From Clostridia bacterium (GTDB taxonomy: Bacteria; Bacillota; Peptococcia; DRI-13; UBA5745), in contig JAHDMJ010000014.1 of NCBI GenBank assembly GCA_018436095.1, forward strand, positions 62,001 through 126,000: 64,000 nt of DNA, written 5' to 3'. The notes under the pieces are model-generated. The model ran no database searches and was not told the DNA's origin. It saw only the letters and a program-made list of their open reading frames with translations. The position numbers and the translations under genes were made by a program. Positions within the stretch are counted from its first letter, which is position 1, and the number at the start of each line of letters is the position of its first letter. Shown one piece after another: positions 28,751-32,520 of this stretch.

Positions 28751-30154
28751 TTACGCTTCCTTAGCCTTGATCCAAATGGCGCATTCCAGCCGTTTTTTCT
28801 CTAATTCGCAGCCTAAATCATAAGGTTCTTTCAAATCGTGATTAAAGTTCCAGGCGTTGGCGTGACAGCCGCCGCTGCAATAAAATCTGGCCCAGCAGGC
28901 CCGGCACTTTTCTTTTGCCAGAACATGACACTCACGGAAATTATTGCCGATAGATGGTTTTTCTATACCTTTATCCACATTGCCCACGGCAAAGTCAGGA
29001 TTGCCGACAAATTGGTGGCAGGGGTACAAGGTTCCTTCCGGAGCCACGGCCAAATATTCATGGCCGGCGCCGCAGCCGCTGAGGCGTTTAGGCAAACAAG
29101 GGCCATGATTCAAATCCAGATTAAAATGGAAGAAGGTGAAAGGCTTACCGGCCCGGGCCCTCGCTACATAATAACGGGCCAGCTCATCGTACTGCCGGAA
29201 AAGCTCCGGCAGGTCTTCTTCATGAAAAGCGTATTCCTCCTGGGGCTGGGCCACCACCGGCTCCACAGAAACCAAATCAAAGCCGGACTCCACCATGTGG
29301 CGGATATCTTCATAAAAATCTTTATTGAATCTGGTATATGTACCCCGCAGATAATAATTGTCTCCGCCCCTGGCCTCTACCGTTTCTTTAAAATGGGGCA
29401 GAATCACGTCGTAGCTGCCTTGACCGCCGATAGCCGGGCGCATTCTGTCGTTGACCTCTTTGCGGCCGTCAAGGCTCAATACTAAAGCGATATCATGTTC
29501 ATTGAGAAAGTCCAGTATCTGGCCTTGCAGCAGCAGGCCATTGGTGGTCAGCGTCTGCTTTAGTTCTTTGCCCCGGCGGCGGCTCTCCGCCTCCCCATAA
29601 AGAACCAATTCTTTGACTACCGGGAAATTCATCAGCGGCTCACCGCCAAAATAGTCTATTTCCACATGCTTTCGGCTGCCGGAAGCCTCAAACAAAAAGT
29701 CCATGGCTTTTTTGCCGGTCTCCAGGGACATCAGGCTGCGGTCACCGCCAAAAGCTCCCGTACCGGCAAAACAATAACGGCAGCGCAGGTTGCAATCATG
29801 GGCTACATGAAGGCAGAGCGCCTTTACCACATAATCCTTGGGAAACCGGTAGTTTTCCAGCTCCGGCGCCTCCGACATCAGCATCCCTGCCGCCGCCAGC
29901 TCCGTCAAGCCTTGGCAAACTTCTTTTATATCACCGGCAATGTCCTGGCTGCCATCAATGGCCTTGGCAGATAAAGCCGCTGCCAGATTAGGGGAAGCCG
30001 GCAGCTCTTTTAAGTCACAGCCGGATTGCCGCCAGAACTGCACCATCTCATAAGCCAATGGGCTTAATTGATGGACAATGCCGCTATTAACGTCAAGTAA
30101 GATATGATCTTCTCCAAAGGTGAATACATGGGTCAAGTTTTCCGCAAATTTCAT
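28751..30154 (-). CDS. scfB: Radical SAM/SPASM maturase of the SCIFF peptide
   Basis: 467 residues, the length of SCIFF maturases. N-terminal RiPP-recognition-like part (residues 1-100; VFTFGEDHILLDVNSGIVHQLSPLAYEMV), the radical SAM cluster motif CNLRCRYCFAGTGAFGG near 117-133 (CxxxCxxC), EIDYFGGEPLMNF near 168, and a C-terminal SPASM region with many cysteines: CHQF, CHVLAKEKCRACWARFYCSGGCHANAW. Known family members install Cys-thioether cross-links in the SCIFF precursor, which is encoded directly upstream at 30306. GAAGAGGAAC precedes the ATG. Function of the mature peptide is unknown although the pair is nearly universal in Clostridia. Confidence 0.95.
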   Translation of the reverse strand: MKFAENLTHVFTFGEDHILLDVNSGIVHQLSPLAYEMVQFWRQSGCDLKELPASPNLAAALSAKAIDGSQDIAGDIKEVCQGLTELAAAGMLMSEAPELENYRFPKDYVVKALCLHVAHDCNLRCRYCFAGTGAFGGDRSLMSLETGKKAMDFLFEASGSRKHVEIDYFGGEPLMNFPVVKELVLYGEAESRRRGKELKQTLTTNGLLLQGQILDFLNEHDIALVLSLDGRKEVNDRMRPAIGGQGSYDVILPHFKETVEARGGDNYYLRGTYTRFNKDFYEDIRHMVESGFDLVSVEPVVAQPQEEYAFHEEDLPELFRQYDELARYYVARARAGKPFTFFHFNLDLNHGPCLPKRLSGCGAGHEYLAVAPEGTLYPCHQFVGNPDFAVGNVDKGIEKPSIGNNFRECHVLAKEKCRACWARFYCSGGCHANAWNFNHDLKEPYDLGCELEKKRLECAIWIKAKEA

Positions 30155-30555: not shown

Positions 30556-31080
30556 GACTTGGCAGTTCCCTAATTTTCGACGTGTTTGATAACTCTGCGA
30601 TGGTTGCCTTCCATGTCTTGGCGGGGGCGTGTTCGCGAAAAAAGTCTACTGCATTTGTGGAGCCGGGTCATCTCTGGGTCCTGGTCCAGTTCTGATGGCG
30701 CCGATTCTCAGATGTACAAAAAACGAAGTATTGTGTACTAACTAGGAATTCTTTCTATTTAAAAAGATACTTTTTGAATAGTTACGCGCATAACTTCATC
30801 TATTATATATATTTATGCTGACATTTACATGTTGATTGCGCAATATCTCAAATTTTGTACACTTTGTACACTAGTCTTTTGGTCAACTGGCCTCGCCGGC
30901 CTCCACCCCTGTTCAGCCTGTGATGAACTGCCCTGGATATTAGGATCATGGTCAGCGGAGGGTAAGGGCAGTGAGGATGAGGCGTTGTCGGCAGGCCTGT
31001 GCAAAAATTACGTTTGTACGTAAATTGGCGAGGTCGGGTGAGCAAAAATTGCACAGGCTAAAACCTGAAACCACACAGAA
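30556..31080. other. Gene-free AT-rich stretch with small repeats
   Basis: No supported reading frame. Contains one divergent copy of the 22-nt interspersed repeat (30713-30737), a 10-bp inverted repeat GCCTGTGCAA (30995-31004) / TTGCACAGGC (31049-31058), and the downstream exon flank of the group II intron. Confidence 0.6.
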
Positions 31081-31767
31081 GTAGGGGTTGGGGTTGCCCC
31101 CAACCTCCCTCCTCAGAACCGGACGTGCCCGATTAAGGCATCCGGCTCCCCGGGCGTCATTAGGTGATCTTAAGTCCTAAGTCACTTATTCCCTTCATTT
31201 CCGCTAACAATGTTCTTCAGCTCCTGTCTGCATCCTTACTTCCTTTCCGCGATCGACGCTTCGTACGCCCCTTCCCTCCACCTGCATTACCAGGCTTCTT
31301 CAGTACTATGAACGTATCCGACTCCCTACCTGCCTTCCGGTTTCCTTACGTGTCTGCGCTTGTACGCCGTTCTGCCGTCGCGGAGCATTTAGGGTCTCAT
31401 CTGTCCCCCCGCTTCCCTTCTCATTCCTCCTCGCCATCCTCTTTGACCCCGGAGAGTGCGATACGTCCTTGCCTTGGCGGTCGTATCGCTTCTGCCTGCT
31501 ACACGGTTGACTGCATCGGCACTCTCGTTTTATTCCTTTCGTGGCTCAATCGGTTCAGTTTCCTTACGGCTCGGTGGACTCGCCCCCATACGCTTAACCT
31601 TGGCGTTACCGCTTTCGGCCCAATGGGTAGCTACCGGCTGCTGGCTAGGCTTTACCGGGCAGGGTTTCCCTGCTGGGTCACGGGAGTTTACCAATGAGAT
31701 CTTCCGTCCTCAAGGGCAATACCCACGTGCTTATTTATTTTAAGCTCGCTGTACTGACAGCTCGCAC
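31081..31767 (-). mobile_element. ORF-less group II intron
   Basis: About 687 bases on the minus strand. The 5' end GTGCGAG (31767-31761) matches the GUGYG consensus; the 3' end is CCCCTAC at 31081. Domain V is at 31148-31116: GAGCCGGATGCC, loop, GGGCACGTCCGGTTC, with the AGC triad and CG bulge. Domain VI follows with stem GGTTGGGG-GCAA-CCCCAACC. The domain I-III part carries typical blocks such as GAGCCGTAAGGAAACTGAACC and, before domain IV, CATAGTACTGAAGAAGCC and GGTGGAGGGAAGGG. The segment where a reverse transcriptase/maturase would sit (about 31150-31290) is only about 140 bases, so no protein is encoded; splicing or mobility would need a maturase supplied in trans. Exact ends are inferred. 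Confidence 0.75.
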
Positions 31768-31840
31768 CAAACGCAAAAGTGGAACAAAACTGCTGCCGAA
31801 ACTGAGGGCACTGAAAAAGTCGGCGGCAAATCAGGCGAGG

Positions 31841-32062
31841 TGCACAAAAATCGAAGTTGTGTCGCAGCGAACCTCAAATTTAGACTAAAAGCAGAGGCTA
31901 ACTGCACAAAAATCGAGGTTGTGTTGTACTATGACCTTTAAATTGGCTCAGATTACGAAAAACTGCCCTATAATCCATCACACAACTTCGATTTTTGTGC
32001 ATCTGGAAACGAAAACAGGTGAAATCTCCTGCTTGCCGTCACACAACCTCGTTTTTTGTGCA
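31841..32062. repeat. Four copies of a 22-nt interspersed repeat, two direct and two inverted
   Basis: TGCACAAAAATCGAAGTTGTGT at 31841-31862 and a GAGG variant at 31903-31924, then inverted copies at 31980-32001 and 32041-32062; a looser copy lies at 30713-30737. Each unit has CACAA/TTGTG arms. Spacing between copies is 40, 55 and 39 bases with unrelated sequence. Not a CRISPR array (orientation flips, too few units). Confidence 0.75.
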
Positions 32063-32210
32063 GTTGGCAACAGCGAATCCGATTTTAGCCATTATACGGA
32101 CATAACCCTGCGACTTTTTCAGCAGCCTCGCCGAAACGGAGAATGATAACCTATTTCTTCGAGTAAATTAAGGCATAAAATACGCCCTGCCTTTTCTTGG
32201 TATATTCCCA

Positions 32211-32260: not shown

Positions 32261-32331
32261 GCGGGTGTAGCTCAATGGCAGAGCTCCAGCTTCCCAAGCT
32301 GGCTACGTGGGTTCGATTCCCATCACCCGCT
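32261..32331 (+). tRNA. tRNA-Gly (anticodon CCC)
   Basis: Acceptor GCGGGTG/CACCCGC, discriminator T, D-arm GCTC..GAGC, anticodon stem CCAGC/GCTGG around TTCCCAA (CCC), T-arm GTGGGTTCGATTCCCAT. CCA not encoded (CTG follows). The last 18 bases are repeated at 32503. Confidence 0.93.
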
Positions 32332-32502: not shown

Positions 32503-32520
32503 CGATTCCCATCACCCGCT
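32503..32520 (+). repeat. Second copy of the tRNA-Gly 3' end (possible att site or tRNA remnant)
   Basis: CGATTCCCATCACCCGCT is identical to tRNA-Gly positions 32314-32331, 189 bases downstream and in the same orientation. The bases before it do not resemble a tRNA, but it is followed by its own terminator-like hairpin. Such 3'-end duplications are left by tRNA-targeting integrases or by partial deletion of a tandem tRNA. Confidence 0.65.

Follow-up and report, generated by a model that had tools for sequence, protein, structure and literature searches.

The window, a 64,000-nucleotide stretch of DNA, contains an intergenic region occupied by a group II intron copy devoid of an open reading frame. 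What we take from its sequence to be a radical-SAM gene (28751–30154) lies 0.9 kb downstream of the intron on the minus strand, and a tRNA gene (32261–32331) lies upstream on the opposite strand, followed farther upstream by a presumed TetR-like gene, also named by reading of the sequence. The final 18 bases of this tRNA gene (32314–32331) recur exactly at 32503–32520, 189 bases on, and this repeat might have the look of an integration scar. No host gene seems to be interrupted, and no gene seems to depend on removal of the intron.

The intron has two kinds of repeat as neighbours. A MITE-like palindromic element (31803–32129), adjacent to the intron and not part of it, comprises four 22-nt repeats in the order + + − − with spacings of 62, 77 and 61; its ends are like GAGGGCACTGAAAAAGTCG and it is flanked by an 8-bp duplication, GCCGAAAC. 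At least seven of the eight flank bases match in 6 of 8 measured copies of the element, compared to 33 of 2000 random places. The 22-nt repeat has 146 matches in the genome to which the window belongs (G000) and nine in a congener (G004), with none in the eight other genomes searched. The original prediction placed such repeats on both flanks of the intron, but they occur on one side only, at 31841–32062 by its 5′ end, and the 3′ side has a weak match (67%) farther off, at 30705–30734. The 3′ flank proper carries another interspersed repeat (30995–31052; TGTGCAAAAATTACGTTTGTACG...) that differs from the 22-nt repeat but is related to it in form, and that has many copies in both genomes; a hand count gives about 19 other occurrences in G000, complete or partial, and about 25 in G004.

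The intron lies entirely on the minus strand, a point not specified in the original prediction, and extends from 31767 to about 31078 (690 nt, GUGCG... to ...CUUC). Its transcript starts with GUGCGAG at 31767, which is a 5′ end of the GUGYG type at the position proposed. The covariance-model search suggested as a check returned a match of RF02005 (group-II-D1D4-6) at 31669–31437 on the minus strand, scoring 126.9 bits (cut-off 49; E-value 1.2e-35), while RF00029 (DV–DVI) matched 31150–31081 on the same strand with 37.8 bits, just below its cut-off of 40 (E 2.7e-5 with 2.2 kb searched). Domain V (33 nt, 31116–31148, minus strand) was assigned from the latter match and from a near-identical domain V in relatives, and domain VI (31078–31114, minus strand) from its isolated fold, which has a bulged A at 31082 and was equalled in stability by none of 200 shuffled sequences (z −3.8). 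Folded in isolation, domain V (z −2.0; 9 of 200 shuffles equally stable) and the domain IV remnant (z −0.95; 37 of 200) give weak signals, and the 692-nt intron transcript as a whole is more stable than all 20 shuffles (z −2.4). When the 5′ portions of four relatives are aligned, 97 pairs are predicted, and for 41 of these at least one sequence has both partners changed with pairing retained. As judged by covariance matches, folds and covarying pairs, the intron structure is not due to chance, and the identification of an ORF-less group II intron holds on the strength of the RF02005 match, domain V, the bulged-A domain VI, the GUGCG start and the lack of a reverse transcriptase.

Comparison with two further copies of this intron reveals how the frame was lost. 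The copy in G004 is 86% identical to the window intron over the 5′ 590 nt and has the same start of domain IV (TTG TTA GCC GAG...), from where it continues into a group II reverse transcriptase frame of 144 codons (TIGR04416, E 1.5e-28) that is then cut off; the 3′ half of the copy is missing, and a C-terminal reverse transcriptase query gave no match in G004 at E 1e-20. The second copy is located on contig C4 of G000 (383200–384005; L004 1701–2506), where the initial 48 intron nucleotides are joined to the second half of the reverse transcriptase. It has domains V and VI and a complete CUUCAC 3′ end; the greater part of its 5′ ribozyme is missing, as is half of its reverse transcriptase, and a TAG crosses its maturase part. 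The window copy follows the G004 frame for ten codons (31210–31181) and, beyond roughly 13 bases of unclear origin, continues with the 3′ portion of domain IV as in the C4 copy; hence, an ORF of about 1.2 kb was deleted, the length being deduced from the 411-codon reverse transcriptase of a more distant relative (L036). These ten codons, the roughly 13 bases and a stop make up the maturase-frame remnant (31160–31210, minus strand). As proposed, no reverse transcriptase lies between the 5′ end and domain V, so that the window copy has no intact reverse transcriptase/maturase in domain IV of the kind that marks a mobile retroelement; that the ORF was removed by a deletion inside domain IV had not been recognized. 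All three known copies are thus broken: the window copy lacks the ORF and the terminal AC, the C4 copy the bulk of the 5′ ribozyme together with half of the reverse transcriptase, and the G004 copy its 3′ half. Neither the missing AY nor the broken state of the other two copies had been noticed in the original prediction. The ribozyme core of the window copy scores 126.9 bits, compared to 125.3 bits for the ORF-bearing G004 copy, and since it is not visibly worse, the window copy may have decayed little.

G001, a genome of the same genus, carries another intron, with a reverse transcriptase that is 49% identical, and reverse transcriptase relatives were found at nine loci in named genomes and at one locus in viral contigs, with identities of just 46–54%, indicating that there is no close intact donor. 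A related intron with nearly the same domain V is present in at least six copies in G038 (L011, L015–L019), five of them at contig starts and one near a contig end, from which we conclude that the intron is multi-copy there and breaks that assembly. A search of solved structures matched the L036 protein to group II reverse transcriptases in general and the C4 fragment to one maturase reverse transcriptase. A large related element on plasmids was considered and rejected, as the matches were short core matches of which none covers 80% of the query.

The 3′ end of the intron could be set by comparison with other copies and with intron-free repeats (the slash marks the boundary between intron and exon). 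All six G038 copies share TTTACTCGAC before they diverge, and the end of the C4 copy is ...CUUCAC, as fixed by an intron-free site in the same genome. The window intron stops at ...CUUC, and TGTGTGGTTTC comes immediately after it, in agreement with the 3′ side of the repeat itself. Over 51 repeat sites, counted by hand and related rather than independent, a 16-base count favours CUUC/TGTGTGG in 44, is tied in 5 and favours CUUCUG/TGTGG in 2, by which the latter end was rejected. An end at ...CCUAC/ (31081), the boundary first proposed, was likewise rejected, since the C4 empty site places the end at CUUCAC/, and the C4 copy together with the intron-free sites moves the boundary to about 31078. 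Whether the intron ends with CUUC or with CUUCUG, AY is lacking at the 3′ end; with the last two intron bases absent, the window copy has no AY 3′ splice site and is for that reason filed as a relic rather than as a working intron. Two copies in G139 have CTCAAGA in common at their 3′ ends, and the AY rule may therefore be loose in this group of introns.

An ORF-less intron may still function if a maturase is supplied in trans, and the original prediction noted that the window encodes no related one. This extends to the whole assembly of G000 (a draft of 3.7 Mb in 38 contigs, 98.5% complete), in which PF00078 and PF08388 have a single match each, located in the C4 copy in both cases, and neither model detected an intact maturase. 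The proposed genome search for a full-length relative did return a relative, namely the broken copy on C4, and none of full length, and RF02005 matched G000 at the window copy alone (31437–31669, minus strand). As G000 is a draft, an intact intron could be missing from the assembly. We consider it unlikely that the window copy is a working ORF-less intron which is spliced, and perhaps moved, by a related maturase, as are the TeI3 introns of Thermosynechococcus elongatus. Its ribozyme domains are nearly complete and deletion of the domain IV ORF is, by the account in PMC2882425, a known route to such introns; however, the sole reverse transcriptase in the genome is a C-terminal fragment, a second ORF-less copy is lacking and AY is missing. 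In place of the related intact IEP that accompanies TeI3-type introns, PF00078 and PF08388 disclosed in the draft only that fragment, and the lack of an intact IEP that characterizes an orphan of the C.te.I1 type holds within the 98.5%-complete draft.

The positions at which the copies reside point to the repeats themselves as targets. Beside the radical-SAM gene, the G004 region matches the window only to about 30559, short of the intron, and has no intron there; synteny with a G004 empty site was thus unusable, and repeat copies elsewhere served as empty sites. When the joined flanks of the window intron were searched against ten genomes, matches spanning the join occurred at many places in G000 and G004, and alignment of 20 stretches among these matches defined a module of the form TG-N-N-CAA-N9-TTG/TRTG, often present as two copies 41 bases apart. 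With its flanks joined, the C4 copy is 93.5% identical over 92 nt to an intron-free site in G000 (L129), which sets its ends exactly (...ACGTTTG / GUGCG ... CUUCAC / TATATA). The 5′ exon of the G004 copy, GAGCACAAACTCGATTTTTG/, is a variant member of the 22-nt repeat family, and its sole match among the sequences searched is on C4, with 24 of 26 bases. In all three copies the intron therefore follows TTG/ at one and the same position of a short interspersed inverted-repeat module, whose left arm carries one mismatch in the window (TGTTCCA) and one in G004 (AGCACAA). On contig C4 and the window, TG..CAA with at most one mismatch occurs at that distance from 125 of 6718 TTTG sites (1.9%), so that, for independent copies, the probability of finding three of three at the motif would be about 6e-6, a generous figure because the motif was defined after the sites had been seen. 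Where the original prediction suspected a sink for mobile elements, the shared position identifies short repeats as the landing site of the intron rather than as a vague sink.

The EBS1 of the window intron, CAACCG (31504–31509, minus strand), has the same loop offset as in four other introns and, read by eye, pairs at five of six positions with IBS1, CGTTTG, in the 5′ exon (31768–31773, minus strand). The TTGAGC...CGAAA core was found in eight rows, six of which (five distinct introns) have a usable 5′ end and two of which (L067, L037) do not; by eye, EBS1 pairs with the last six 5′-exon bases at 6/6 in G057 and at 5/6 each in G139, L057, G004 and the window. The window EBS1 would pair at all six positions with CGGTTG, a variant counted in 18 of 51 candidate repeat sites; the site of the window copy itself has CGTTTG. 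We tentatively propose, and see a little less than an even chance for it, that the lineage uses the scattered inverted-repeat modules of the genus as landing pads, inserting after TTG/ at a fixed position in TGNNCAA-N9-TTG/T with an EBS1 adapted to the module variant (CAACCG for CGGTTG in G000, CAAAAU for ATTTTG in G004). Such an EBS1 would offer many harmless targets and, if true, repeat landing would constitute a further means by which introns could spread without harm to the host. A literature search on group II introns and repetitive extragenic palindromic sequences gave no match, which is not proof that repeat targeting of this kind is unpublished.

Taken as a whole, the window stretch is, in our judgement, quite likely the minus-strand relic of a mobile group II intron whose ORF has been deleted, whose AY has been lost and whose ancestor inserted into a host repeat module. 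That ancestor would have encoded a reverse transcriptase/maturase within domain IV and propagated through reverse splicing, with EBS1 pairing with the 5′ exon and directing insertion after TTG/ at the fixed module position; a later deletion inside domain IV would then have removed nearly all of the ORF from the window copy, which, having no last two intron bases, lacks an AY 3′ splice site. On these sequence features, the copy has probably ceased to splice, and it would have lost its mobility. Points against a relic are the core score, which is no lower than that of G004, the intact domains V and VI, the possibly loose AY rule, the draft state of the genome and the sub-threshold RF00029 match.

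Some of these features would also suit a self-splicing orphan independent of any maturase, like C.te.I1 of Clostridium tetani: no intact IEP was found in the genome, and domain V, the bulged-A domain VI and EBS1 are present. Yet no host gene is interrupted, no promoter-like site was seen just upstream of the intron and the missing terminal AY argues against splicing; we regard such an orphan as decidedly improbable, and give equally small weight to the further step, beyond repeat landing, that the window copy still splices without a maturase. Slightly less probable again is an intron remnant retained as a structured RNA that has taken on another function, as has been suggested for RmInt1-like fragments that persist in rhizobia (PMC5894124); the core structure is kept, but the locus is not conserved in G004. 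Practically no probability attaches to a protein-coding stretch on the plus strand with an accidental intron match, since the frames of 177 and 95 codons that exist there (31164–31694 and 31456–31740) have no Pfam match at E 0.01 and the larger has no NCBIfam match either, in keeping with their original designation as by-products, and the covariance match contradicts it.

As a relic, the window intron invites comparison with several known systems. At 690 nt without an ORF, its ribozyme is longer than usual for group IIC introns. In PMC4424553, group IIC introns at terminators and attC sites are described as preferring inverted-repeat DNA in intergenic positions, which is alike. The same 2015 review presents ORF-less bacterial introns as rare and nearly always accompanied by a related IEP in the genome, with C.te.I1 named as the sole exception. 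C.te.I1, reported in PMC3919590 to splice in vivo and in vitro, resembles the window intron in being ORF-less in a genome with no intact IEP found; by these accounts it resides in a surface-layer protein gene and splices, whereas the window copy is intergenic and without AY, and the genome of the latter holds IEP fragments of the intron's own family. The window intron is a second candidate for a state without ORF and maturase, one that looks like decay and not like a stable ribozyme. T. elongatus, as described in PMC2882425, has 17 ORF-less introns that derive from one deletion and are moved by driver IEPs; a domain IV deletion that removed the ORF and left a remnant of its start is common to both cases, but here there is one ORF-less copy and no intact IEP was found. 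In Sinorhizobium, according to PMC5894124, RmInt2 has the inverted repeats of ISRm17 as its targets, and relics survive in the form of intron fragments; RmInt2 and fragments such as FRE652 share with the window intron the insertion into inverted repeats of other elements and the decayed pieces left behind, although RmInt2 targets the ends of one IS and the window intron a short interspersed repeat module. Set beside these systems, the window intron is of a kind already known and fits at the extinct end of the described landscape, with an unusual choice of target.
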